DNA from: Bacteroidota bacterium
GTDB taxonomy: Bacteria > Bacteroidota > Bacteroidia > Bacteroidales > Prolixibacteraceae
Direction of reading: 5' to 3'
Length of the DNA: 11,873 nucleotides
Assembly (NCBI GenBank): GCA_030695265.1
Contig: JAUYTA010000265.1
Coordinates: 1 to 11,873, forward strand
Below the pieces are notes generated by a model. That model saw only the letters and a program-made list of their open reading frames with translations. It made no database searches and was not told the DNA's origin. The position numbers were made by a program, and so were the translations under genes. Below, piece after piece: positions 378 through 11,873 of the stretch (its first letter is position 1; each line of letters starts with the position of its first letter).

Positions 378-1721
378 ATGAAATATCACCTGATTACATT
401 GGGTTGCCAGATGAACCTTTCGGACAGCGAGCGCGTGAGCGCCGTGCTCGAAAATATGGGTTACGAAAGAACTGAAAACGAGGAAGAAGCCAATTTACTT
501 GGTATGCTGGCTTGTTCGGTGAGGCAAAAACCCATCGATAAAGTTTATAACAAAATCGCCCAGTGGAACCGGTGGAAGAACAAGCGCAACCTGATCACTT
601 TTGTTTCAGGATGTTTGTTGCCTGCCGACAAGGAGAAATTCCTGAAAACGTTTGACCTGACATTTCAGATGAGCGAACTGGCGCAATTGCCGGAAATGAT
701 TCGCGGATACGGAGTTGTGACTCCTGCCGGACTTCGGTCGCCGCAACCGGTGATGCCTAAAAACGAGCACATTGCCGAAATGTGGCACATCAAACCTAAA
801 TACCAATCGAGCTACGAAGCTTTTGTGCCGATTCAAAACGGATGCGATAAATTCTGCACTTTTTGTGCGGTTCCATATACACGTGGACGCGAAGTTTCAC
901 GGCCATCCGTTGAAATCATCGAAGAAGTTCGCCATCTGGTGAATCAGGGCTATAAATCCATTACGCTTTTGGGGCAGAATGTAAATTCGTACGGACTGGA
1001 TAAAAATGGCCAGGAAATCAATTTTGCGGAATTACTTCGTCAGATTGGCGAATACGGCATCACTTCCGGCGAAGAATTTTGGGTATATTTTACCTCGCCA
1101 CATCCGCAGGACATGAACCGCGAAGTAATTGAAGTAATTGCTGCGTACGATTGTCTGGCGAAGCAAGTTCACCTGCCCATGCAAAGTGGCGACGAGCGTG
1201 TGCTGATAAAGATGAACCGTCGGCATTCTATGGACAAATACCGCCGGATTGTGGCCGACATTCGCGAACTGATTCCGCAGGCCACTTTGTTTACCGACAT
1301 TATTGTTGGATTTTCAAGCGAAGGCGAACCCGAATTTCAGAACACAGTGACTGCCATGAACGAATTCCGTTATAACATGGCCTACATTGCAATGTATTCG
1401 CCACGACCCGGAGCCGCCAGTTTCAGATGGGACAACGAGGTTTCTGCGGAAGATAAAAAAGACCGCCTGCACCGGCTAACCGAAATACTGAAAATTCATT
1501 CAAAAGAATACAATGAAACAATGGTTGGCAGAACAATGCGTGTTCTGATCAACGGAACCGACCGGAAAACAGGCTTTTCAACCGGACTCACTGAAGGCAA
1601 GCTTATTGTCCGACTCGATCACAGCGATGCATCATTGATGGGAAAGATTGTGGATGTGAAAATTACTTCGGCAGCCGATTTTTCTATGAGTGGCGAAATG
1701 TTGGTTTTAGTTAACCATTAA
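378..1721 (+). CDS. miaB: tRNA-2-methylthio-N6-dimethylallyladenosine synthase (MiaB family)
   Basis: Radical-SAM methylthiotransferase of 447 residues, a normal length for MiaB. The N-terminal UPF0004 domain has the three cysteines expected to hold the auxiliary [4Fe-4S] cluster: C10 (LGCQMN), C46 (ACSVRQ) and C79 (SGCLLP). The radical-SAM triad C156/C160/C163 is in NGCDKFCTFCAVPYTRGRE. LGQNVNSYG at about 198 is typical of MiaB rather than RimO, and a TRAM-like RNA-binding tail follows from about residue 380. The enzyme methylthiolates i6A37 in tRNAs that read codons starting with U. The motif usually reading NTCS(V/I)R is LACSVRQ here, and the N-terminus resembles a divergent MiaB subclade. 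The ATG at 378 is chosen because the alternative at 366 stops after four codons. The 3' end overlaps the convergent mevalonate kinase gene by 15 bp. Confidence 0.9.
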   Translation: MKYHLITLGCQMNLSDSERVSAVLENMGYERTENEEEANLLGMLACSVRQKPIDKVYNKIAQWNRWKNKRNLITFVSGCLLPADKEKFLKTFDLTFQMSELAQLPEMIRGYGVVTPAGLRSPQPVMPKNEHIAEMWHIKPKYQSSYEAFVPIQNGCDKFCTFCAVPYTRGREVSRPSVEIIEEVRHLVNQGYKSITLLGQNVNSYGLDKNGQEINFAELLRQIGEYGITSGEEFWVYFTSPHPQDMNREVIEVIAAYDCLAKQVHLPMQSGDERVLIKMNRRHSMDKYRRIVADIRELIPQATLFTDIIVGFSSEGEPEFQNTVTAMNEFRYNMAYIAMYSPRPGAASFRWDNEVSAEDKKDRLHRLTEILKIHSKEYNETMVGRTMRVLINGTDRKTGFSTGLTEGKLIVRLDHSDASLMGKIVDVKITSAADFSMSGEMLVLVNH

Positions 1722-2705
1722 CAATTCAATTTGATTCTTGCCGGCCCAGTTTTTAAGCCCATTTTTAGTTTCTGAAATGACCAGCAAAAAGCCGCCACCG
1801 CCCGATCCCAACAGTTTTATAAAAACCTTTTCGGTTAGCGCTGCTGAAATTATACCATGAAAATCTCCGGGAATCATTCGCTGGAAATGCTGTAACTGAA
1901 AGTGAATCAGTTGTTCCAGAAAAAGAAAAAAGTTTTGTTGATCGCCGTTCAGCAACGATTCTACGCAGCCGTTGTTGGCCGGAATAAACTGTTTATCGAA
2001 TGCCAGTTTAAACTCCGGAAAGTTCGACCGTTCAATAAAATGCTGAACCAGCGGGCCGGTTGGTCCGGTTGTTCCGGTATCAATTAACGCAAACGATAAA
2101 TCAGTTTCAGCCAAATTTATTTTTACATGGTGAATTGTTTTTTTTGAATCGATCAGCAAAGGACAGTTCAAAAATGAAATCAGCGGATCAATTCCCGAAC
2201 TTTTGCCGTGAAAATAGCTTTCCAGCATTGAAAAATCAACTTTCAGCGATTCAGGCGTAAGTTCAGCTTCTGGAACAGAACTTTCGGCATACCGGCTGAA
2301 AAGCGCCGCCACCAATGCGCCAGAACTTCCAACACCATATTGCTGCGGAATATTTGAGTTAAAATACAATCCTTTTTCAAGATCAGTTTTCAGGCTTTGC
2401 AAATCGAACGGAAAATTCAGTTTTTGGCTGTCATCGTCCGTTTTCAGGTGTTCGTAGAACTTTCGGATTTCGGTCGTACTTTCCTGATGCGATTGATCCG
2501 AATCAAAATCGAGAAAACCCGAAAACCGGTCGAACGGAACTGAAAGAGCTTTTGCACCGAACATCAGTCCGTATTCGCCAAAAAGAAGGAGTTTTGAGTT
2601 GAAGACGCAAGCCCCATCCCCAACCCTTCCCCCATGGGGAAGGGAGGAAAGCCCCTCTAAATCTCCCCGAAGGGGAGACTTCGGGAAATTGAAGGTTCTG
2701 AACAT
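1707..2705 (-). CDS. mvk: Mevalonate kinase (GHMP superfamily) with a repeat-encoded N-terminal insertion
   Basis: ATP-dependent kinase expected to phosphorylate mevalonate at O5. With the ATG at 2705 it has 332 residues. Family elements are FNSKLLLFGEYG at about 35-46, the ATP-loop YGVGSSGAL at about 123-131, FHGKSSGID with the likely catalytic Asp at 173, and the glycine-rich third motif LLGSGGGGF at about 298-306. An in-frame TTG at 2732 would add nine residues; I prefer the ATG. Residues about 8-34 do not belong to the family. They are translated from two abutting palindromic repeat modules (2610-2681) lying between the start codon and the conserved core. It is the last gene of the - strand cluster, about 90 bp after mvaD. 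Specificity for mevalonate rests on family resemblance and on the neighbours. Confidence 0.85.
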   Translation of the reverse strand: MFRTFNFPKSPLRGDLEGLSSLPHGGRVGDGACVFNSKLLLFGEYGLMFGAKALSVPFDRFSGFLDFDSDQSHQESTTEIRKFYEHLKTDDDSQKLNFPFDLQSLKTDLEKGLYFNSNIPQQYGVGSSGALVAALFSRYAESSVPEAELTPESLKVDFSMLESYFHGKSSGIDPLISFLNCPLLIDSKKTIHHVKINLAETDLSFALIDTGTTGPTGPLVQHFIERSNFPEFKLAFDKQFIPANNGCVESLLNGDQQNFFLFLEQLIHFQLQHFQRMIPGDFHGIISAALTEKVFIKLLGSGGGGFLLVISETKNGLKNWAGKNQIELLMVN

Positions 2706-2812
2706 TTTAGCTTTTTTAAACACTTGTTCCAATGTAAAATAATAAATCTCTGCATACCGATTCTTACTCCCCTCCTTCGGAGGGGTCGGGGGAGGCTATT
2801 TGGGGGAGGCTA
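2610..2812. repeat. Composite inverted-repeat element I (mvaD/mvk junction)
   Basis: The left arm has two tandem modules. Module A (2610-2647) contains a perfect 9-bp stem, CCCTTCCCC/GGGGAAGGG, around CAT (2624-2644). Module B (2651-2681) contains a perfect 7-bp stem, TCTCCCC/GGGGAGA, around GAA (2662-2678). The right arm (2766-2798) is module A in the opposite orientation, with stem CCCCTCC/GGAGGGG around TTC (2769-2785), and ends GGGGGAGGCTA. That 11-mer recurs at 2802-2812. The spacer is about 84 bp and holds the start codon of mvk. The left arm encodes the odd N-terminus of mvk; the right arm supplies the TAG stop and last residues (ASPK) of mvaD. The layout resembles a REP doublet (REPIN); mobility is inferred. 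Confidence 0.75.
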
Positions 2813-3857
2813 CCACCCTTACCGGCCCTTTTCCGATCCGGTCGTCAATCCAATTTCCATCTTCACAAAATTCCAGTAAATCACGTTCAATAAAAGCTTT
2901 CACATCCAGCTCATTCTTTTTGAAATAGAGCAAATGAATATTTGGTCCAGCATCAATCGTAAATAAAACCGGTATTTTCGCTCTTTCACGAAACCTTCTG
3001 ATTCGGCTGATCAATTCAAGACTATTCGGTTTCAGCAAAATAAACGATGGATTGGAAGTCATCATCATGGCATGCAAACTCAGTGCTTCATTTTCAACTA
3101 CTTCAATAAAACTTTCCAGATTTCCGGTGAGCATGGCAAGATACAACTCGTTGATATTCTGATGTGCCTGCCCAATACGTGCCCGTTGAAAAACATGATC
3201 GTTCATTAGCTCGTGCCCGACAGAACTGGAAACCTGTTTGGTACCTGAATCAACCATCAGAATGGCATCGCGAAGGCCGTAAAAAGCGGGGTGAATTCCT
3301 TCATATATCATTATCGCATGTTCGTCGCTGCACGATTCAAACAATTGTGTCTGACCCCAAATCGCGAAACCCGGATACACCGACCGGCAGGCGCTTCCAC
3401 TTCCCAGTCGCGCTATTTCCGAAGCTTTTAACCATAGATCCGGGTGGTCAGGTTCTCTTCCTGAAATGGCAAAGTCGATTTCAGTAATGCACAACGCCAA
3501 TGCGCCAAACGACGATGCCGACGACGCAATTCCAGCCGAATGCGGGAAACTGTTGTGACTGTGAATTCTGAAATTGTATTTGTGAATCCATGGCATTTGC
3601 TTGGAAATAGTATGGAGGAATTTTTCAATCCGATCGCCAAAAGCGCTGGGCGCACCCTCAAAATAAAACTCAACTTTCTGCTCACCTTCCTTCAGCAATT
3701 CCACCGATGTTTCGGTAAAGGCATTCTGAAGCACAAAACTCAACGATGGGTTCATTGGTTTCTGAAAATCACGTTTCCCCCAGTATTTCACCAGCGCAAT
3801 ATTCGAAGGACATCGCCATTTACTTGCCCAATGGACATGCTTTGTTGTTCCGGTCAT
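2796..3857 (-). CDS. mvaD: Diphosphomevalonate decarboxylase
   Basis: GHMP-superfamily enzyme of 353 residues that converts mevalonate 5-diphosphate to isopentenyl diphosphate, using ATP and releasing CO2. Visible family elements are CPSNIALVKYWGKRD at 16-30, NPSLS at 36-40, the phosphate loop FPHSAGIASSASSFGALALC at 104-123, SGSACRS at 153-159, and TIDAGPN with the catalytic Asp at 302. The set is complete, so an active decarboxylase is expected. Phosphomevalonate decarboxylase or mevalonate-3-kinase paralogues cannot be formally excluded by eye. The start ATG overlaps the stop of the upstream kinase gene as ATGA (4 bp), which indicates translational coupling. The last four residues (ASPK) and the TAG stop come from the flanking repeat, so the ancestral C-terminus was probably slightly different. 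Confidence 0.93.
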   Translation of the reverse strand: MTGTTKHVHWASKWRCPSNIALVKYWGKRDFQKPMNPSLSFVLQNAFTETSVELLKEGEQKVEFYFEGAPSAFGDRIEKFLHTISKQMPWIHKYNFRIHSHNSFPHSAGIASSASSFGALALCITEIDFAISGREPDHPDLWLKASEIARLGSGSACRSVYPGFAIWGQTQLFESCSDEHAIMIYEGIHPAFYGLRDAILMVDSGTKQVSSSVGHELMNDHVFQRARIGQAHQNINELYLAMLTGNLESFIEVVENEALSLHAMMMTSNPSFILLKPNSLELISRIRRFRERAKIPVLFTIDAGPNIHLLYFKKNELDVKAFIERDLLEFCEDGNWIDDRIGKGPVRVVASPK

Positions 3858-4792
3858 TGGTTTTCCCGTTTTAAGATCAGTTCATTCCATCTAAAAATAG
3901 TGGTTAATCCTCTATTATCAAAATATTTTTTCACTCCTGAAAAAGGCAGTGCTGACGAAATCAGGTAGAAGTCGCCACTCCATGCCCCCAACGATTTTAT
4001 CGCGCCATCAAAGTCATTGAAAAGCTGCTCTTTCACAGGTATTTGCCCGATCAGCCTGCCAACAATTTCTTCGTGTTGTCTTATTAATTTGTTGAAATTA
4101 TTTTGATCAAGGCAGCCTGCAAACTCGTCCGACAATGCCGAAACTTCCTGAATCAGCCGATCCGAAACCTTTTTCTCTTTCAGGAATGTACTGACTTCGG
4201 AACTTGTTTTTTTCTTTTTTCCTGAATACACCAGAAACAGTTGTTCTGAAAACGGATAATTCAATACAATTGGTTGCGCTGGTTTGTTCCTGACATACAA
4301 AATCGGTCCGTCAGCATTTGCGCAGGCAATGTCAAATCCTGAGCCTTGAAATACCAGTTCGTTCAGGATAAAAGGATCGACACCTGCCCATTGCGAAAGA
4401 AGGCTGATCAATGTGCTGCTGCTGCCAAAACCCCATTCTGGATTGGCTTCCAGCGATGTTTCTATTTTAGTTCCGGCTTTTGGATGAAAGATTGGATTCA
4501 GTGTTTTGATGGTTCGAAATATTTTGCTCAGTGTTGCCGCTTTTTCAGTATGACTGGTTTTGATAGCCGAAAAATCATTTGGATTTAGCTCACACGAAAA
4601 CCATACTTTTCCTTCATAAAAAGCCTGCCAAATTATGTCTTCAGAATTCAGTCTATCCTGAACGGTCAATTGTTGACCCAATTTAATCGGTAGCGCAATT
4701 GCCTTTGCCCCGTGAAGAATCAGGTATTCTCCGGTTAAAAGCAGCTTGCCGTTGGCGCGATATGTTGAGGAAGAAGTCAATAGATTCGACAT
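3854..4792 (-). CDS. GYDIA-family GHMP kinase, probable phosphomevalonate kinase
   Basis: A 312-residue GHMP kinase. The N-terminus ANGKLLLTGEYLILHGAKAIALP (13-35) is the family's first motif and WGFGSSSTL (120-128) is the ATP-loop. GSGFDIACANADG (150-162) corresponds to the signature that names the Bacteroidota GYDIA family, with Phe for Tyr. The third GHMP motif is degenerate: KSLGAWSGDFYL (266-277) instead of the usual glycine run, a feature I associate with this family. The pathway needs a kinase between mevalonate kinase and the decarboxylase, and no classical phosphomevalonate kinase is present, so phosphorylation of mevalonate 5-phosphate is the inferred role. The gene starts directly after the HMG-CoA reductase stop (TGAATG, no spacer) and overlaps mvaD by 4 bp, so it sits inside a tightly coupled unit. 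Confidence 0.85.
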   Translation of the reverse strand: MSNLLTSSSTYRANGKLLLTGEYLILHGAKAIALPIKLGQQLTVQDRLNSEDIIWQAFYEGKVWFSCELNPNDFSAIKTSHTEKAATLSKIFRTIKTLNPIFHPKAGTKIETSLEANPEWGFGSSSTLISLLSQWAGVDPFILNELVFQGSGFDIACANADGPILYVRNKPAQPIVLNYPFSEQLFLVYSGKKKKTSSEVSTFLKEKKVSDRLIQEVSALSDEFAGCLDQNNFNKLIRQHEEIVGRLIGQIPVKEQLFNDFDGAIKSLGAWSGDFYLISSALPFSGVKKYFDNRGLTTIFRWNELILKRENQ

Positions 4793-6112
4793 TCAAGATT
4801 CAAGATTCCTCCAATACTCTTCCACCGCCGAAAACGATACTGTTTTATCCTGAAAATAGCTTTGAATTTCAGCCCTTTTTTCCTCCGGAATATTCAGTTG
4901 GTTCAGGATATTGCTCAAATGCATTTTCATGTGTCCCTGCTGAATTCCGCCAGAAACCAGCGCTTTCACCGCTCCAAAATTGGATGCCAGTCCGGCCACT
5001 GCCAGATACATCATTAATTCCAACGCCGATGGATTTCCGAGTATCCGCATCGCCAGTTTCGAAAGTGGATGAACTGCTGTTACGCCGCCAACTACTCCGA
5101 CTGCCATTGCAATTTCGATGCTGAACCGAAACATTCTATTCTTAACCTGCACATCTGTTAGGCCAGCATATTGACCGTTGCGGGTGGCAAAAGCGTGTCC
5201 GCAAGCTTCAATGGCCCGAAAATCGTTTCCGGTTGCCACAGCCAGCGCATCAATACCGTTGAAAATACCTTTGTTGTGCGTTACTGCCCGCGAAACATCT
5301 GTCTGCGAAATGCGGATGGCCTGTTCAAACTTTTGTGCAAACTGAAAACATTCAGCTTCTGTTTTGCCGTCGAATAACTCATTGACCGGACATTCCACCC
5401 ATGCGCGAACACGGCTTTCAGGAGTATAATTGGATAAAATAGCCATGATGATTTCACATTCACGCTGGCCGGTTGAAATCTTTTCGCTGGTCAGAAAATA
5501 ATCCTGAAGGCTTTTACCGAATTGTTCCAAGCACGAATTGATAAAGTTGGCGCCCATTGCATCGCAGGTTTCAAAACCGGCATCAAGCTGAAAATAGTTA
5601 GGCAAAATAGTTGGCAATGATTTAAGTTCAATCTGGGTAATTCCGCCTCCGCGCTCTTCCATTTTTGCTGTCAGAAAAGCACTTTCAGTCAGCAACTTCA
5701 ATCGAATTTCAGGAAAAAGCGATTGTAAATACTCCGGATTCCCATTCCATTTGAAATGAAGTTGTCCTTTTTTTTCGGTGCCCAAAACTTCAGCATGAAA
5801 ACCGCCCCGCTTCGCCCAAAAACCGGCTGCATTTGCCAGCGCGGCAACAACCGAACTCTCTTCGGAAACCAATGGAAAAAATAAATTTTTGCCGTTCACC
5901 ACAAAATTTGGAGCTACGGAAAAAGGAAGATGAAAACTTGAAACCGGGTTTTCGCTCAAATCGTCGATGATTTTGCGGATAGTTTCGTTGGTTGCTTCGA
6001 AAGAACCAAGCCATTCAGCCAAATCTGGTTCAAATCCGTATTTCTGAATCAATGCATTGATTCGTTGTTGTTTGGTGTATTTCGAGAACCCCTGAATAAT
6101 GGAATTATCCAT
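4793..6112 (-). CDS. mvaA: Hydroxymethylglutaryl-CoA reductase, class II
   Basis: Soluble 439-residue reductase, close to the usual class II length and without membrane segments. It interconverts HMG-CoA and mevalonate using NAD(P)H. The four catalytic residues known from the Pseudomonas mevalonii enzyme can be placed: Glu85 in SEESSVVAALANAAG, Lys281 in THNKGIFNG, Asp297 in TGNDFRAIEACGHAFA, and His394 in QQGHMKMHLSNIL. DAMGANFIN (184-192) is the dinucleotide-binding helix motif. Class II enzymes can run in either direction, but the downstream kinases, decarboxylase and isomerase indicate mevalonate synthesis here. The substrate is the same compound made by the leucine-breakdown genes upstream. 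The start overlaps the fni stop by 8 bp, and the stop abuts the next ATG. The NADH or NADPH preference cannot be read from the sequence. Confidence 0.95.
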   Translation of the reverse strand: MDNSIIQGFSKYTKQQRINALIQKYGFEPDLAEWLGSFEATNETIRKIIDDLSENPVSSFHLPFSVAPNFVVNGKNLFFPLVSEESSVVAALANAAGFWAKRGGFHAEVLGTEKKGQLHFKWNGNPEYLQSLFPEIRLKLLTESAFLTAKMEERGGGITQIELKSLPTILPNYFQLDAGFETCDAMGANFINSCLEQFGKSLQDYFLTSEKISTGQRECEIIMAILSNYTPESRVRAWVECPVNELFDGKTEAECFQFAQKFEQAIRISQTDVSRAVTHNKGIFNGIDALAVATGNDFRAIEACGHAFATRNGQYAGLTDVQVKNRMFRFSIEIAMAVGVVGGVTAVHPLSKLAMRILGNPSALELMMYLAVAGLASNFGAVKALVSGGIQQGHMKMHLSNILNQLNIPEEKRAEIQSYFQDKTVSFSAVEEYWRNLES

Positions 6113-7115
6113 GATAATCGGGATTTATTTTTAAAAAAGCATTTGCAAGTTGAAGCGCCTGAATTTGATTTTCGAGGAAAGCTGCCAGCGATTCGTAACT
6201 TACAGAAGCATGTTTCAACACAGCTGAAGCCATTCCGAAAACAGCCGGCAACTGGCTTTTGGAAGTTAGATAATAACCGTCCAGGGCATTTTGAATTCCG
6301 CCCGAAATAATCAGCTGGCGACAAGCAGGATTCGGATTTTCTTTCAGGATTTGATTCACGGAGTTGACCATTTGACTGGCAGACTGGCCGACAAATGCAA
6401 ATGGCAAGCCCGCTTCCAGTTTTTGGGGATCGCCGCGCAACATTTCCAGTTTAGCGAAGTTGGTTCCTCCGTAGGCTCCAAATTCAATGGCTTCTATCGG
6501 AAGGGCAAGCAATTGCCGCATACTTTCAGGACCAAAACCCTGACCAACTTCCTTCACAATAATCTTAAAATCGACCTGAGTGAGCAATTGCTGAATCGTT
6601 TGCAAAGGAGATTGTTTCAGGCGGTTTCCTTCAGGCTGAAACCATTCCTGCAAGGGATTGACATGCACGATCAATCCGTCAGCGCGAAGTTCTCCGACCA
6701 GATCGCCAACTGCCTGAATATTCTTTGATGCGAGCAATTCTTCAATTTGTGCAATTCCCAAATTGGCCCAAAATGGCTGATCGTCGCCAATTTCATTCCT
6801 GAAATTAAAATCGTCCCAATTGGTTTTATCGAATAGTAATTTGCGACAGGAGCCGAGTCCCATTCCCATTCCAAATTCGCGGCAGGCGCGTGCAATGTTT
6901 CTGTTGATAGTCTGTGCCACACCAGTTCCGCCAGTCATGCTCGAAACCCAAATGGGATTTCGCATCGTTTTGCCGAGAAATAGAATACTCAAATCTGAAT
7001 TTTCAGGATGGGCAGCCAGCATTGGTTCGTAGTTGAAACGCTGGTCTTGCTCCGTCAGTTTGGTCTGCGAATCAAGCGCAAGTTTGATGTGTTCGAGTTT
7101 TCGGTCGGAAGCCAT
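6105..7115 (-). CDS. fni: Isopentenyl-diphosphate delta-isomerase, type 2 (FMN-dependent)
   Basis: FMN- and NADPH-dependent TIM-barrel isomerase of 336 residues that interconverts IPP and DMAPP. Family motifs in order are RKLEHI (5-10), WVSSMTGG (56-63), GLGSCRKLL (86-94), HVNPLQE (151-157, with the Gln and the Mg-binding Glu of the active site), KEVGQGFG (188-195), and FGAYGGTNFAKLE (212-224), which contacts the FMN phosphate region. It balances the two C5 units after the decarboxylase and supplies the DMAPP that MiaA would use to make the MiaB substrate. It starts 6 bp after the acyl-CoA dehydrogenase stop and overlaps HMG-CoA reductase by 8 bp. It therefore forms the physical joint between the leucine block and the mevalonate block. 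Confidence 0.95.
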   Translation of the reverse strand: MASDRKLEHIKLALDSQTKLTEQDQRFNYEPMLAAHPENSDLSILFLGKTMRNPIWVSSMTGGTGVAQTINRNIARACREFGMGMGLGSCRKLLFDKTNWDDFNFRNEIGDDQPFWANLGIAQIEELLASKNIQAVGDLVGELRADGLIVHVNPLQEWFQPEGNRLKQSPLQTIQQLLTQVDFKIIVKEVGQGFGPESMRQLLALPIEAIEFGAYGGTNFAKLEMLRGDPQKLEAGLPFAFVGQSASQMVNSVNQILKENPNPACRQLIISGGIQNALDGYYLTSKSQLPAVFGMASAVLKHASVSYESLAAFLENQIQALQLANAFLKINPDYHG

Positions 7116-7121
7116 TGAGAA

Positions 7122-8273
7122 TTATTTCAAGATATTTCGTGAAATTACCATCCGCAGAATTTCTGATGTTCCTTCACCAATCTGGAGCAATCGCTGATCG
7201 CGGTAGAAACGCTCGATGGGCCATTCCCGGTTTTTAAATAATCCGGCGCCACCCAGAATCTGAACCGCTTCGTCGGCCACCTCTCGGGCAATTTCAGAAC
7301 AATACAGTTTCGACATGGCTGCTTGTTGCGCGTATGAATGTCCATTGTCTTTCATCCAGCAGGCATTGTACAACGAGTTTCGCGCATTTTCAATTTTCAC
7401 GGCCATGTCTGCAAGTTTGAAGGCGATGACCTGAAATTCGCTCAACGATTTTCCGAATTGTTTGCGTTGTTTTGAATAGGCAAGGGCGATTTCGTAGGCT
7501 CCCTGTGCCAATCCGAGGCCTATGGCTGCAATCGATAAACGACCCGAATCAAGCGTTTTCAGCATGATTTTAAAACCATAACCGCGCTCGCCCAACTGGT
7601 TTTCGAGCGGAACCCGGCAATCGTTGAAATAAAGCATTCCATTATCCGCTGCACGCCAAACCAATTTGTTTTTCATGGTTTCGCGGATAAACCCCTGTCG
7701 TTCTTTTTCAACCAAAATGGCAGTAAATTCTTTTCGGCCATCCTTTTCGCCGGTAATGGCCAAAGTGGTCATTCCAGCTGATATTTCAGAGGTTCCGTTG
7801 GTGATATATTTTTTTGAGCCGTTTATCAGGAATTCATCTCCGGTTATCACAGCAGTTGTTTCAACTCCCTGTGCATCAGAACCTGCATTCTCTTCGGTCA
7901 GCCCGAAAGCCCAAAGCTTTTCTCCGGTACAAAATGCAGGAAGAAACTTTTCTTTTTGTTTTTGTGTGCCGAATTCCAGGATTGGGCCAACACCCAGCGA
8001 GTTGTGCGCAGCAAGCGTTGCAGCCATCGAGCTGTCAATCCGGGCAACTTCCTCAATGGCAATAATGTACGAAAGGTAATCAGCTCCCTGTCCACCAAAT
8101 TCTTCGGGAACATGCATCCCCAATACGCCGGTCTTGCCCATTTCCCGAACCAGTTCTACCGGAAATATCTCCTTCTCGTCAAAATCATCGATCACCGGTT
8201 TTATAAACTTCTCGGCAAAATGACGAACTTTCGCCCGTATCTGATGATGTTTTTCCTTTAATAATGCATTCAT
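7122..8273 (-). CDS. Acyl-CoA dehydrogenase (isovaleryl-/short-branched-chain role inferred)
   Basis: FAD-dependent acyl-CoA dehydrogenase of 383 residues, full length. WAFGLTEENAGSDAQG (121-136) is the flavin/substrate signature, and RKQFGKSLSEFQ near 273 and QILGGAGLFKN near 339 are typical. The catalytic base is in IGEGTSEI (Glu367), the position used by short- and medium-chain dehydrogenases. The position where known isovaleryl-CoA dehydrogenases carry their base (helix segment LDxERL) reads LDSGRL, with Gly244. The context, just after methylcrotonyl-CoA carboxylase and hydratase genes, suggests isovaleryl-CoA to 3-methylcrotonyl-CoA. The residues, however, look like a butyryl-CoA or 2-methylbutyryl-CoA dehydrogenase. 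Electrons would go to ETF, which is not encoded here. The gene begins after composite element II and an AT dinucleotide tract that abuts the ATG. Confidence 0.92.
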   Translation of the reverse strand: MNALLKEKHHQIRAKVRHFAEKFIKPVIDDFDEKEIFPVELVREMGKTGVLGMHVPEEFGGQGADYLSYIIAIEEVARIDSSMAATLAAHNSLGVGPILEFGTQKQKEKFLPAFCTGEKLWAFGLTEENAGSDAQGVETTAVITGDEFLINGSKKYITNGTSEISAGMTTLAITGEKDGRKEFTAILVEKERQGFIRETMKNKLVWRAADNGMLYFNDCRVPLENQLGERGYGFKIMLKTLDSGRLSIAAIGLGLAQGAYEIALAYSKQRKQFGKSLSEFQVIAFKLADMAVKIENARNSLYNACWMKDNGHSYAQQAAMSKLYCSEIAREVADEAVQILGGAGLFKNREWPIERFYRDQRLLQIGEGTSEILRMVISRNILK

Positions 8274-8284
8274 ATATATATATA
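8272..8284. repeat. AT dinucleotide tract abutting the dehydrogenase start codon
   Basis: Thirteen bases of alternating A and T run directly into the ATG of the acyl-CoA dehydrogenase as read on the - strand. The tract replaces any recognisable ribosome-binding site. AT-rich leaders are normal for this phylum, so function is not implied. Slippage here would change the leader length only, not the reading frame. Confidence 0.55.
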
Positions 8285-8290
8285 AATTAT

Positions 8291-8450
8291 GAGCCCCCTA
8301 AATCCCCCGTAGGGGGACTTCCTGGATTGTATCGTTTTTTATTTGTTCTCTATTTGTCAAAATTTCAGAATCTGTAATGTTCTTGTTTTGTTATTCTGTA
8401 AATCAGCACTTTTTTAATCTCCCCCTGCGGGGGAGTTGGAGGGGGCCTCA
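8291..8450. repeat. Composite inverted-repeat element II (carboxylase alpha/dehydrogenase junction)
   Basis: The left arm (8291-8320) is a module B copy, GAGCCCCCTAAATCCCCC..., with a 6-bp stem closing on GTA (8303-8317). The right arm (8418-8450) is module B reversed, with a perfect 7-bp stem CTCCCCC/GGGGGAG around TGC (8419-8435). The 97-bp spacer (8321-8417) is AT-rich and holds the stop codon of the carboxylase alpha subunit; the right arm encodes that protein's last residues. The left arm lies 17 bp upstream of the dehydrogenase ATG, outside its coding region. No convincing Bacteroidota promoter (TTTG/TAnnTTTG) is visible in the spacer. Neither hairpin is followed by a T-run, so a terminator role is unsupported. 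Confidence 0.7.
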
Positions 8451-10474
8451 AGCTCCAACAGTAATTGCTTTTCAATCACTGTATTCCCTTCCTTAATGTG
8501 AATTTTTTTAACCATTGCATCCACCGCACAAAGTACATGAATTTCAGTTTTCATCGATTCCAGCGTCAGTAATTTTTGTCCCGAACAGACTGCATCTCCC
8601 TCACATACATTTATTTTCAATACCCTACCAAACAAATCGGCGCAAATAAGGTTCTGAAAAATATTTATGGTTTCCAGATTTTTACGGTCAACTTTGGCCT
8701 GCTGAAGCAAACTGTTGCTTTGCAATTCATACGTGAAACCGTTTGTCCCAATCAATGTTCTCCCAATTTCTTCAAATATATAGAACTTTTCTGCTTGCCG
8801 ATCAATTTGAATTTCAAGTTTTTTGCCTGTCAGTTTCCAGTTATTCACCAGATATTCCTGATGATTGATTCTGAAAATCTTTCCGTTCTCAATTCCACAT
8901 TTGTATTTTTCTCCTTCAATCGAAACCTCAAATTCCTGCATTATTCTCCAGAATCCAATCTGGTTCCAAACCGAATCTTTTGTATAATTTGTTTGCTGAA
9001 AATGAAAAATCAGGTAGGCAATCACCAGCTTGTGATTGTTCTGGTTTTCTTTTTTATCCTGAATTTGCAGATTGATCAACTTTAAATTTGTGTCAATATA
9101 TCGTGTGGAAATTTTATTCTCTTGAAATTCGGTACTTTCAATCAATCCTGACAAAAATGAAAGATTGGTGTGAATTCCTGAAATACAGGTTTCGGAAAGC
9201 ACTTGCTTCATTTTTCCAATTGCCTTTTCGCGATTTTCGCCCCTGACAATTATTTTCGCAAGCAGTGAATCGTAATTGGGTGAAACGTTTATTCCTTCCG
9301 AAACAAAAGTTTCAAGCCTAATATTCTGTTCTGCCGGAAAATCCCAAACATTGATCTTTCCGGAGGATGGAAGGAAATCCCGGGTAGCGTCTTCGGCACA
9401 TAGCCGCACTTCGATGGCATGTCCAGAAATCTGAATATCTTCCTGATTTATTGGCAATGGATTTCCGGCAGCCACCAGCAATTGTAAAGAAACCAGATCC
9501 GAATTGGTAATCATTTCTGTAACCGGATGCTCCACCTGAATGCGGGTATTCATCTCCAAAAAATAAAAATGGCCGGTTTCGTCAAGCAAAAATTCGATGG
9601 TTCCAGCGTTCCGGTAATTCATCGACCGGGCAATTTTTACTGCTGCTGAAGTCAGTTCAATCCGCAGATTTTCGCTGATCGATGGCGAAGGCGCTTCTTC
9701 GATAATCTTCTGAAAGTTGCGTTGAACAGAACATTCGCGTTCGAAAAAGTGAAGTACTTTTCCATGATGGTCGGCTAAAAGCTGCACTTCAAGGTGGCGT
9801 GCTCTTGGCAAATATTTCTCAACGAACAATTCACCGTTTCCAAAATAGCTGATTGCCTGCCGTTCTGCTTTTTCGAGTGCAGGAAGCAATTCTTCCGGCG
9901 ATTCACAAATCACCATTCCTTTTCCGCCGCCGCCCGCCGAGCCTTTCACCATCACCGGAAATTCCATTTCATGAGTGTGCTGAGCCAATTCTGCAACTGT
10001 TCCGCGAAATGAAGGTAAAACGGGTATTCCCAGGGATTCAACGTATTTGAAAGCCTGATTTTTTTCACCCATCAGGCGGATGTTTTCAGGAGAAGGACCA
10101 ATAAAAATGAGTCCTGCATCGGCCACTTTTTGAGCAAAACCGGCATTTTCGGAAAGAAATCCATATCCGGGATGAATGGCTTCAACGCCAGATTTTTTTG
10201 CAATCTGAATAATTTTTTGCTGATTAAGATACGTATCGTTTAGGGTTTTTCCGGAAAGCAAAACCGCTTCGTCAGCCAGCGAAACATGCAAAGATTCAGC
10301 ATCGTCGGCGGCATAAACTGCCACAGTACGAACGCCGTTCTTTTGTGCCGCCCGGATGATCCGAACTGCAATTTCGCCTCTGTTGGCGATGAGAATAGCC
10401 TCCCCCAACCCCTCCGAAGGAGGGGAGAAAAACCTCGGCACTCGCGCATTTTCGGGTTGAAAGAGATTCGGCAT
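8414..10474 (-). CDS. Methylcrotonyl-CoA carboxylase biotin-containing (alpha) subunit
   Basis: Biotin carboxylase fused to a biotin carrier domain, 686 residues from the ATG at 10474. It carboxylates its own biotin using ATP and bicarbonate. Core motifs are ILIANRGEIAVRI at about 27-39, HPGYGFLSEN near 101, the ATP-grasp loop KGSAGGGGKGM at 177-187, and EMNTRIQVEHPVTE at 307-320 with the catalytic Arg. The biotinyl motif is LESMKTE, with the biotinylated Lys at about 642. The linker between the domains is divergent. Acetyl- or propionyl-CoA carboxylase alpha subunits look alike; the methylcrotonyl assignment rests on the LiuC-type hydratase and the acyl-CoA carboxyltransferase next door. An upstream in-frame start at 10600 would overlap the hydratase gene by 122 bp and is rejected. 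Residues about 17-28 (FSPPSEGLGEAI) and the last eleven (EAPSNSPAGGD) are repeat-derived. Confidence 0.88.
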   Translation of the reverse strand: MPNLFQPENARVPRFFSPPSEGLGEAILIANRGEIAVRIIRAAQKNGVRTVAVYAADDAESLHVSLADEAVLLSGKTLNDTYLNQQKIIQIAKKSGVEAIHPGYGFLSENAGFAQKVADAGLIFIGPSPENIRLMGEKNQAFKYVESLGIPVLPSFRGTVAELAQHTHEMEFPVMVKGSAGGGGKGMVICESPEELLPALEKAERQAISYFGNGELFVEKYLPRARHLEVQLLADHHGKVLHFFERECSVQRNFQKIIEEAPSPSISENLRIELTSAAVKIARSMNYRNAGTIEFLLDETGHFYFLEMNTRIQVEHPVTEMITNSDLVSLQLLVAAGNPLPINQEDIQISGHAIEVRLCAEDATRDFLPSSGKINVWDFPAEQNIRLETFVSEGINVSPNYDSLLAKIIVRGENREKAIGKMKQVLSETCISGIHTNLSFLSGLIESTEFQENKISTRYIDTNLKLINLQIQDKKENQNNHKLVIAYLIFHFQQTNYTKDSVWNQIGFWRIMQEFEVSIEGEKYKCGIENGKIFRINHQEYLVNNWKLTGKKLEIQIDRQAEKFYIFEEIGRTLIGTNGFTYELQSNSLLQQAKVDRKNLETINIFQNLICADLFGRVLKINVCEGDAVCSGQKLLTLESMKTEIHVLCAVDAMVKKIHIKEGNTVIEKQLLLELEAPSNSPAGGD

Positions 10475-10550
10475 GCTCTTATATGTTAAGATTTTCAGAA
10501 TTTGTAGCGCCTGCTCCCTTCTCCTTTGGAGAAGGGTTGGGGATGAGGCT
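10396..10550. repeat. Composite inverted-repeat element III (hydratase/carboxylase alpha junction)
   Basis: The left arm (10396-10427) is module A, TAGCCTCCCCCAACCCC..., with a perfect 7-bp stem CCCCTCC/GGAGGGG around GAA (10409-10425). The right arm (10514-10550) is module A reversed, with a perfect 9-bp stem CCCTTCTCC/GGAGAAGGG around TTT (10516-10536). The 86-bp spacer holds both the hydratase stop (10479-10481) and the carboxylase alpha ATG (10472-10474), which are 4 bp apart. Both arms are translated: the right arm into the hydratase tail (IPNPSPKEKGAGA) and the left arm into the N-terminus of the carboxylase (FSPPSEGLGEA). Confidence 0.75.
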
Positions 10551-11390
10551 GTAGTTTGGTTTTCGCTTTTCCAGAAATGCCTGAATTCCTTCCTGACCAT
10601 CTGGCGAGGAAAGCGCTTCCGCCAAAATTACTGCTGTCAGTCCGGTATCATTTACTCCAATGGCTCCGGACGTCACCTGATTGATCGTGTTTTTCGCTCT
10701 CTTCACTGCCGAAGGTGCTCCCGCATCGAAAGAGTTCAGAAATTCTGACAATGTCTTTTGCAACTGATCTTCTTCGTATAGAATATCCGCCAAACCTGCC
10801 TGATGTGCTTCGGTAGCATAGAATAAACTTCCGGTCAAGATCCATTTCCGCAGATTTTGAACTGACAATCTTTTGGCTACAAACGGCAAAATTGTAGCAG
10901 GTAAAAGGCCTAGTTTTACTTCACTGAACATGAAACGGGTGTTTGCTTCGGCCAGCACAAAATCACAGGCAGCCATCAGTCCAATGCCACCGCCAAATAC
11001 GTTTCCACGAGCACAAGCAATGGTTATTAATGGCAATTGGTATAGTTTCAATAACAGATCTGCTAAATGTTTATAGCGCGCCGCATTTTCCTCCTGATTG
11101 TTTTCGTCTGATCCGTAAAACCAGTTCAGATCGGCTCCGGCACAAAATGATCGGCCATTTCCGGAAAGTACCATAAAAAGCAGGTCGTTTCGGCCGGAAA
11201 TCTCATCCAGCGCCTGATCCAGTTCAGCAATCATCTCTAGAATAAGCGCATTGTGCCTCTCCGGACGATTTAATGATATCCGGGCGACGGCTTTCTCAAT
11301 CTTAACTTCAATATATTTATATGAGCCTCCCGCTGCCCCCTCCGAAGGAAGGGAGTAAGAGCCGGCGTTCATATGTCTTGAAAATTTCAT
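10479..11390 (-). CDS. liuC: Enoyl-CoA hydratase/isomerase family protein, probable methylglutaconyl-CoA hydratase (LiuC type)
   Basis: Crotonase-fold protein of 303 residues, longer than the usual ~260. The oxyanion-hole segments are SFCAGADLNWF (81-91) and ARGNVFGGGIGLMAACD (127-143). One catalytic Glu is kept (E157 in FSEVKLGL), while the position of the other crotonase Glu is Gly (GGGIGL). The loop GLLPATILPFV (161-171) resembles the PAxIxP(Y/F)V loop of bacterial LiuC enzymes and differs from the GGTQRL loop of general enoyl-CoA hydratases. The expected reaction is hydration of 3-methylglutaconyl-CoA to HMG-CoA. The extra length is repeat-derived: residues about 11-23 (SYSLPSEGAAGGS) precede the core start YKYIEVKIE, and a tail from about 281 (SLIPNPSPKEKGAG) follows the normal family end EKRKPNY. 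A second ATG at residue 7 could also serve as start. Confidence 0.87.
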   Translation of the reverse strand: MKFSRHMNAGSYSLPSEGAAGGSYKYIEVKIEKAVARISLNRPERHNALILEMIAELDQALDEISGRNDLLFMVLSGNGRSFCAGADLNWFYGSDENNQEENAARYKHLADLLLKLYQLPLITIACARGNVFGGGIGLMAACDFVLAEANTRFMFSEVKLGLLPATILPFVAKRLSVQNLRKWILTGSLFYATEAHQAGLADILYEEDQLQKTLSEFLNSFDAGAPSAVKRAKNTINQVTSGAIGVNDTGLTAVILAEALSSPDGQEGIQAFLEKRKPNYSLIPNPSPKEKGAGATNSENLNI

Positions 11391-11464
11391 CTTTTGTTTT
11401 CTATAATATTATTCAAAGCGTTTCTTTAAGCCCCCTCTTTCGGAGGGGGTTTGGGGGAGGCTTC
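11325..11464. repeat. Composite inverted-repeat element IV (carboxylase beta/hydratase junction)
   Basis: The left arm (11325-11355) is a decayed module A copy with the core CCCTCCGAAGGAAGGG, whose stem is imperfect. The right arm (11428-11464) is module A reversed, with stem CCCCCTC/GAGGGGG (11431-11449), and is bounded by AAGCC and GGCTT. The 72-bp spacer contains the hydratase ATG (11388-11390). The left arm encodes residues about 11-23 of the hydratase. The right arm starts 7 bp after the carboxylase beta stop codon, so here the upstream protein is not extended. This is the only right arm that lies wholly outside a coding region. Confidence 0.7.
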
Positions 11465-11471
11465 TTTCTCT

Positions 11472-11873
11472 TTACATCCTGAAAACTCCATAATCCGGTT
11501 CTCCGAACGAACGGTTCAGCGAGACAGAAATTGCCATTGCCAGCACTTTTCGGGTATCTGCAGGATCGATGATTCCATCGTCCCACAAACGTGACGAGCT
11601 GTAATAAGCCGAACTTTCCACATTAAACTGTTCGAGTAATTTATCTCCCGACCCATTGTTTCCAATGCTTTTCAAAACTCCGGAAGCTTGTTCGCCACCC
11701 ATCACCGAAATACGCGAATGTGGCCACATAAACAGAAAATGAGGATCGAACGAACGTCCTGCCATAGCATAATTTCCGGCGCCAAAAGAACCGCCAATTA
11801 CCACAGTAAACTTTGGAACTGCTGCATTGGCAACGGCATTTATCAGTTTTGCACCATCGCGGGCAATTCCTCC
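11472..11873 (-). CDS. Methylcrotonyl-CoA carboxylase carboxyltransferase (beta) subunit, C-terminal part
   Basis: The last 133 residues of an acyl-CoA carboxyltransferase; the gene begins beyond the right edge of the window. Visible are GGIARDGAKLINAVANAAVP, then TVVIGGSFGAGNYAMAGRSF and FLFMWPHSRISVMGGEQASG. These match the second carboxyltransferase half, with the oxyanion-stabilising glycines of the crotonase-like fold. The segment ADTRKVLAMAISVSLN near the C-terminus is typical, and GNYAMAGRSFDPHFLFMWP resembles methylcrotonyl-CoA carboxylase beta more than propionyl-CoA carboxylase beta. It transfers the carboxyl group from biotin on the alpha subunit to 3-methylcrotonyl-CoA. It is the furthest upstream visible gene of the - strand cluster, and element IV separates it from the hydratase. 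A GTG at 11804 is internal, since conserved sequence continues upstream. Confidence 0.93.
   Translation of the reverse strand, partial: GGIARDGAKLINAVANAAVPKFTVVIGGSFGAGNYAMAGRSFDPHFLFMWPHSRISVMGGEQASGVLKSIGNNGSGDKLLEQFNVESSAYYSSSRLWDDGIIDPADTRKVLAMAISVSLNRSFGEPDYGVFRM

Follow-up and report, generated by a model that had tools for sequence, protein, structure and literature searches.

Leucine carbon can reach isoprenoids through 3-hydroxy-3-methylglutaryl-CoA (HMG-CoA), a 'leucine shunt' that a review describes from labelling in Halobacterium salinarum and Leishmania mexicana and that, to the knowledge of its authors, has not yet been built in E. coli (PMC8791446). The mevalonate pathway of T. 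brucei in the insect gut is probably supplied mainly by leucine, even though the organism has a synthase gene (PMC5993337). The Pseudomonas liu cluster comprises a dehydrogenase, the alpha and beta subunits of 3-methylcrotonyl-CoA carboxylase (MCC) and the LiuC hydratase, together with liuE (HMG-CoA lyase) and liuR (PMC9636800). HMG-CoA and isovaleryl-CoA are likewise linked through LiuC in the Aib pathway of Myxococcus xanthus, which runs the opposite way, from HMG-CoA to isovaleryl-CoA, begins with MvaS and uses AibA/B/C (PMC9131029, PMC9548883). Here we analysed a contig of 11,873 nucleotides (JAUYTA010000265.1; hereafter the window, meaning the whole stretch of DNA under study) from a Prolixibacteraceae bacterium, on which liu-type genes adjoin the genes of the mevalonate pathway. 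In contrast to the Pseudomonas cluster, this row has neither liuE nor liuR, its dehydrogenase is not of the LiuA type, and mevalonate genes follow. Whereas T. brucei and Haloferax volcanii possess an HMG-CoA synthase (HMGS) gene, none was detected in the Prolixibacteraceae genomes searched. Moreover, the known cases of the shunt rest on labelling, while the present one is a single bacterial gene row, known from its genes, beside a marker of the methylerythritol phosphate (MEP) pathway.

Nine consecutive minus-strand genes occupy positions 1707-11873 of the window and lead from MCC to isopentenyl diphosphate (IPP) and dimethylallyl diphosphate (DMAPP), as an earlier note on this stretch had stated, and profile searches identified all nine (Table 1). 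The two blocks touch as described there, with 6 bp between the dehydrogenase gene and fni, and neither HMGS nor HMG-CoA lyase is encoded among the window genes. We consider it likely that the nine genes constitute a shunt of leucine (isovalerate) into isoprenoids without acetyl-CoA condensation. The earlier note had suggested such a carbon route, which now has support at the level of genes, the flow itself being a prediction.

This arrangement is conserved in the family. We sampled 120 Prolixibacteraceae genomes from 23 genera, including Sunxiuqinia indica (G036) and Tangfeifania diversioriginum DSM 27063 (G009; placed in Prolixibacteraceae, Marinilabiliales), and found HMG-CoA reductase (HMGR) in 68 of them, from 13 genera. 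The order MCC beta-LiuC-MCC alpha-acyl-CoA dehydrogenase-Fni-HMGR-GYDIA kinase-diphosphomevalonate decarboxylase (MVD)-mevalonate kinase (MVK) on one strand was complete in 36 of 40 fetched loci, the other four being without end genes (MVK in L039, MCC beta in L041 and L056, both in L062). Given this recurrence of order and strand, and pairwise identities down to 28-29% in a wider set of loci with all nine genes, chance is not a sensible explanation. Genes of both blocks lay on one contig in 63 of the 68 HMGR-positive genomes, so that the joined cluster that the earlier note proposed to seek in relatives is widespread there. In 57 of the 68, the LiuC and HMGR matches shared a contig at a distance of 3.9-7.4 kb. 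In six (G033, G050, G057, G091, G107, G112), HMGR was accompanied on its contig by liu-side genes other than LiuC; the dehydrogenase was the sole one seen before the contig end in G050 and G057, and L197 (G091) lacks a LiuC gene between those of the two MCC subunits. Three further genomes (G079, G085, G113) were uninformative, being fragments or mis-assembled, as locus L199 of G079 appears to be. Strong LiuC matches occurred in five of the 52 HMGR-negative genomes. Those in G060, G081 and G109 belong to operon-type liu pieces ending at contig ends; G042 and G070, considered as cases of liu without HMGR, were rejected as carrying another crotonase, with only a second crotonase and no other operon gene nearby. 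Among the 120 genomes, none that covered the locus had one half without the other, and five genera (g2, g5, g8, g16, g17) contain members with both halves alongside members with neither. All nine genes were present at a coverage of at least 75% in 44 of 51 loci, and the remaining seven were dropped from the identity and distance analysis. Across the 44 loci, the minimum pairwise identity by gene ranged from 28 to 57% (28-29% for MVK and LiuC), and pairwise distances correlated at 0.93 between blocks versus 0.94-0.95 within blocks, with shared ancestry not removed. The nine genes are best read as one inherited unit, an operon.

The earlier note had called for a genome-wide search for mvaS and lyase genes. 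Neither was found in the rest of the own assembly, nor in any of the 120 family genomes. Using PF01154, HMGS was detected in none of the 120, with seven of 14 control genomes positive, archaea and E. coli (presumably FabH) included; PF08540 gave no match in the own genome and matched four of the 14 controls. As PF01154 is weak on Bacteroidota enzymes, we built an alignment of seven Bacteroidota HMGS sequences (A2), which also detected none in the 120 genomes. As a positive control, A2 matched in 33 of 296 genomes of a phylum sample, 21 of them strongly (658-842 bits), and all 21 were HMGR-positive. For HMG-CoA lyase, no family genome reached the cut-off of 246 bits, the highest score being 61.6, with no Bacteroidota lyase serving as positive control; three of the 14 control genomes exceeded it, and the lyase of a Bdellovibrionales locus (L131) scored 389 bits. 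The lyase model matched weakly in all 120 genomes; most of these matches lie in frames of 500-560 aa, taken here to be relatives of 2-isopropylmalate synthase. The MEP marker IspG, the sole MEP gene searched, was found in 114 of the 120 genomes, including 64 of the 68 that have HMGR, which the earlier note had overlooked. On this ground mevalonate as the only isoprenoid route was rejected, and the nine-gene row is therefore an additional, second supply.

The assignments of the upstream block favour a methylcrotonyl-CoA route. A full-length orthologue of MCC beta (L032:13083-14651) scored 666.8 bits to the human and 664.6 bits to the P. aeruginosa MCC beta subunit, and 444.4 bits to the beta subunit of geranyl-CoA carboxylase (GCC). 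MCC is distinguished from GCC by a three-residue insertion (PMC4673880), and in that region the L032 protein aligns without gaps to P. aeruginosa MCC. Phe191 is a discriminating residue of the P. aeruginosa enzyme. By these comparisons, the carboxylase is assigned to MCC rather than GCC. MCC alpha matched the P. aeruginosa subunit (3u9s) over its full length with 437 bits and carries the biotin motif ESMKT. For LiuC, the NCBIfam models PRK07468 (199 bits) and PRK05674 (gamma-carboxygeranoyl-CoA hydratase; 187 bits) were both below cut-off. Its third-best PDB match is isohexenylglutaconyl-CoA hydratase (4zu2), an enzyme that acts on a gamma-carboxylated enoyl-CoA, the type of product made by MCC. 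Together with the dehydrogenase, genes for every step from isovaleryl-CoA to HMG-CoA are present, the specificities being predicted from homology.

Downstream, the gene set from HMG-CoA to IPP comprises HMGR, two GHMP kinases, MVD and Fni. HMGR matched PDB 7n7s with 411 bits over nearly its whole length, and E85, K281, D297 and H394, whose catalytic role is known from the Pseudomonas mevalonii enzyme, were invariant in all nine aligned family sequences. It scored 241 bits against TIGR00532 (cut-off 260). A Pfam search at 0.001 returned no match for the GYDIA kinase, and MVK reached 25 bits with PF00288 (cut-off 22.3). Some genomes of g5, g13 and g17 contain rows without a detected fni (L194, L206, L209, L210, L212). 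In other Bacteroidota classes, some open frames with HMGR are 755-779 aa long and may be fusions (G185, G278, G346, G354, G385).

In the proposed shunt, isovalerate, or leucine by way of its 2-oxo acid, would give rise to isovaleryl-CoA, which would be oxidized to 3-methylcrotonyl-CoA by the acyl-CoA dehydrogenase, carboxylated to 3-methylglutaconyl-CoA by MCC at the expense of ATP and bicarbonate, and hydrated to HMG-CoA by LiuC. With no cleaving lyase found, HMG-CoA would be reduced to mevalonate by HMGR, followed by two ATP-dependent phosphorylations, decarboxylation with a third ATP to IPP and CO2, and isomerization to DMAPP. The carboxyl group added by MCC becomes C1 of mevalonate and is removed by the decarboxylase, which would leave the five isovaleryl carbons intact as one isoprene unit. 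Starting from 2-oxoisocaproate, the route is redox-neutral, as two 2-electron oxidations balance the 4-electron step of HMGR. The forward direction is favoured because ATP would be used at both ends, by MCC and by the kinases. The shunt may run beside MEP, perhaps using up excess leucine or isovalerate released when protein is degraded; its substrate specificities, direction, flux and physiological role are deduced here from genes.

The row is extended in some genera. In a flank survey of 33 family loci, in which the 2-oxoacid dehydrogenase E1 and the MenA-like protein were scored on one member each and lipoyl synthase on two, an E1 alpha/beta fusion of the 806-aa type stood beside MCC beta on the same strand in eight loci, all from g16. 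In L064, the E1 gene, which lies upstream, has its final codon closing at 3410, with the earliest MCC beta ATG at 3406. Downstream of MVK, lipoyl synthase was found in 11 loci and a MenA-like prenyltransferase in four, the latter below the cut-offs of the MenA profiles. With these additions, the row of the genera concerned seems to take in the 2-oxo acid step, the cofactor of that step and a user of isoprenoids.

HMGS was also undetected in most mevalonate-bearing relatives, a second point that the earlier note had overlooked. HMGR was found in 68 of the 296 genomes of the phylum sample, the own genome included. Of 80 named mevalonate loci, the genomes behind 48 were searched, with L104 left out; ten of the 48 carry the operon (L075-L077, L083, L084, L086, L087, L098, L115, L128). 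TIGR01835 matched in 43 of the 48, never above its cut-off, below which known Bacteroidota synthases likewise fall. Two matches were synthase-like (Crocinitomicaceae L135 and Cryomorphaceae L142; 158 and 164 bits) and the other 41 scored at most 45 bits; most of the 48 genomes have weak HMGS-model matches in frames of about 320-390 aa that are probably FabH-like. Within the flanks examined, 37 of the 38 operon-free named-record loci have no MCC gene near HMGR, the exception being L131. Mevalonate genes without a clear HMGS were seen in Bacteriovoracaceae and several Flavobacteriaceae (L091, L120, L126, L132, L133 and L137 among others; G426, G446-G449, G451). The order fni-HMGR-GYDIA-MVD-MVK is shared by Bacteriovoracaceae, Chitinophagales and Ancylomarina loci, which, unlike the Prolixibacteraceae row, are without adjacent MCC and LiuC. 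In Ancylomarina (L104:7694-14376, L127), a dehydrogenase directly precedes this set, with a MutS-like gene upstream of it in L104. Bacteriovoracaceae and comparable loci repeatedly have a crotonase gene on the opposite strand beyond MVK, which comes immediately after MVK in L091 (14348-15160) and L123 (14334-15167); the matches in L099, L136 and L141 are weaker. In L131 (16278-21247, Bdellovibrionales), a liu cluster with HMG-CoA lyase is convergent to fni-HMGR-GYDIA-MVD-MVK, so the two modules meet outside Bacteroidota too, there with a lyase.

Several observations weigh against a leucine shunt. No clear HMGS was found in 46 of the 67 other HMGR-positive phylum genomes and in 36 of the 38 named-record genomes without the operon, which means that either the phenomenon is wider or the models have a limit that weakens the absence of HMGS. 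Accordingly, either an unrecognised type of HMGS exists, or HMGS-free mevalonate pathways are common, maybe drawing on unlinked leucine catabolism. In two HMGR-positive genomes of genus g17 (G016, G065) both blocks are present but split, several gene assignments, those of Fni and MVK included, remain below NCBIfam cut-offs, and an unrelated HMG-CoA lyase is possible. IspG suggests that MEP is present, which makes the need for a second route less evident, and the E1 might act on pyruvate instead of branched-chain substrates, with near-equal scores of 143.6 bits to pyruvate and 133.9 bits to branched-chain enzymes. The dehydrogenase is assigned to the short-chain rather than the classical LiuA/isovaleryl-CoA dehydrogenase type: its best PDB match was 5ol2 (353 bits), followed by the short-chain enzyme 1jqi (315 bits), with isovaleryl-CoA dehydrogenases at 255 bits or less. 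Classical isovaleryl-CoA dehydrogenases are not known to have this Glu of the xGTSE motif, which reads GEGTSE in the window and carried Glu in all 50 family frames caught by one pattern in 79 loci, among which a few genomes appear more than once. Isovaleryl-CoA as its substrate is the weakest predicted assignment of the row.

We weighed three other explanations of the locus. It is unlikely, in our judgement, that HMG-CoA comes from an unrecognised HMGS elsewhere and that the liu genes are mere neighbours sharing regulation: a missed enzyme type would indeed leave most HMGR-bearing relatives HMGS-negative, as seen, and might correspond to the FabH-like frames, but the PF01154 search was not narrow, given its positive controls, the liu and mevalonate halves are jointly present or absent across a family with 13 HMGR-bearing genera, and no synthase is needed to complete the path leading from MCC to HMG-CoA, with no draining lyase found. 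A wider reading of the shunt, which is no rival to it and is more probable than this one though still doubtful, is that mevalonate pathways without HMGS are widespread among Bacteroidota and Bdellovibrionota, Bacteriovoracaceae included, with leucine or isovalerate as the normal source of HMG-CoA and the Prolixibacteraceae operon as the case in which the linkage has become physically fixed. An Aib-like reverse direction, in which mevalonate or HMG-CoA would yield methylcrotonyl-CoA and isovaleryl-CoA for iso-fatty acids, draws some support from LiuC being bidirectional in Myxococcus (PMC9636800), and from the best NCBIfam models of HMGR ('degradative') and the dehydrogenase (acryloyl-CoA reductase), both below cut-off. 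Yet no MvaS was found in the 120 genomes to make HMG-CoA, MCC is an ATP-driven carboxylase, the nine window genes, to which this search was confined, include no AibA/AibB/AibC-type gene, and the presence of two kinases, a decarboxylase and Fni indicates IPP as the product. We set this direction aside as very improbable for the absence of MvaS and the ATP-driven steps. The kinship of LiuC with isohexenylglutaconyl-CoA hydratase would fit a carboxylase and hydratase acting on geranyl-CoA or another terpene acid, recycling isoprenoids by acyclic terpene utilisation. This reading was rejected on the MCC beta scores, agrees neither with the gap-free alignment at the MCC-specific insertion nor with the absence of a detected lyase, and was judged extremely improbable.

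The window represents one entire contig of a metagenome-assembled genome (4.29 Mb, 1074 contigs) that is rated 100% complete and 9.7% contaminated. On the plus strand, miaB and a partial ferredoxin reductase-like gene stand beside the row. MiaB and the operon genes are 86-99% identical to those of a same-genus genome (L032); the contig therefore belongs to the lineage, and contamination was rejected. From MCC beta to MVK, the eight intergenic gaps are 81, -122, 140, 6, -8, 0, -4 and 63 bp, and the overlap of LiuC and MCC alpha (-122) becomes a gap of about +4 bp with the ATG at 10474, likely the real start of MCC alpha. Operon junctions carry imperfect palindromes of one family, each about 37 nt long and with a core like CCCCTCCxxxGGAGGGG; some copies form part of the reading frames at the ends of LiuC, MCC alpha and MVK. 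Because these annotated ends hold repeat-derived sequence, the starts of the three genes are uncertain. Promoter and terminator scans of the locus gave no more sites than shuffled sequences, and Rfam and tRNA scans gave no matches.

Table 1 Genes and repeats of the nine-gene row, with positions in the window
Feature	Position	Strand	Profile evidence
MCC beta, C-terminal 133 aa, 5' part past contig end	11472..11873	-	PF01039 88.7 bits
LiuC-type 3-methylglutaconyl-CoA hydratase (crotonase; predicted product HMG-CoA)	10479..11390	-	PF00378 162 bits
MCC alpha (biotin carboxylase and biotin carrier)	8414..10600	-	Biotin_carb_N/C, CPSase_L_D2, Biotin_lipoyl
Acyl-CoA dehydrogenase, short-chain type; putative isovaleryl-CoA dehydrogenase role	7122..8273	-	Acyl-CoA_dh_N/M/1
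Type 2 isopentenyl-diphosphate isomerase (Fni)	6105..7115	-	TIGR02151 203 bits, 5e-60, cut-off 281 not reached
Class II HMGR	4793..6112	-	PF00368 246 bits, cut-off 27
GYDIA-family GHMP kinase (probable second pathway kinase)	3854..4792	-	NF040656 303 bits, cut-off 225
MVD	2796..3857	-	TIGR01240 172.5 bits, cut-off 171.35; MVD-like_N, MDD_C
Mevalonate-kinase-like GHMP kinase (MVK), start uncertain	1707..2732	-	TIGR00549 70.5 bits, cut-off 163 not reached
Palindrome copies	2610-2646, 2764-2800, 10394-10430, 10514-10550, 11330-11365, 11420-11462		

The shunt itself is already known from labelling, and an operon of this kind without synthase or lyase looks new; no report of it was found in the open-licence part of PMC, subscription papers being outside the scope. 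If the leucine shunt reading is true, the operon would bypass acetyl-CoA condensation and would provide a genetic basis for a shunt known chiefly through labelling, raising the question of why cells bearing an MEP marker retain a second, leucine-tied supply. It would also represent a ready-made, redox-neutral cassette from isovalerate to terpenes, and these bacteria would turn an amino acid or a short branched fatty acid into isoprene units with its carbon skeleton preserved.

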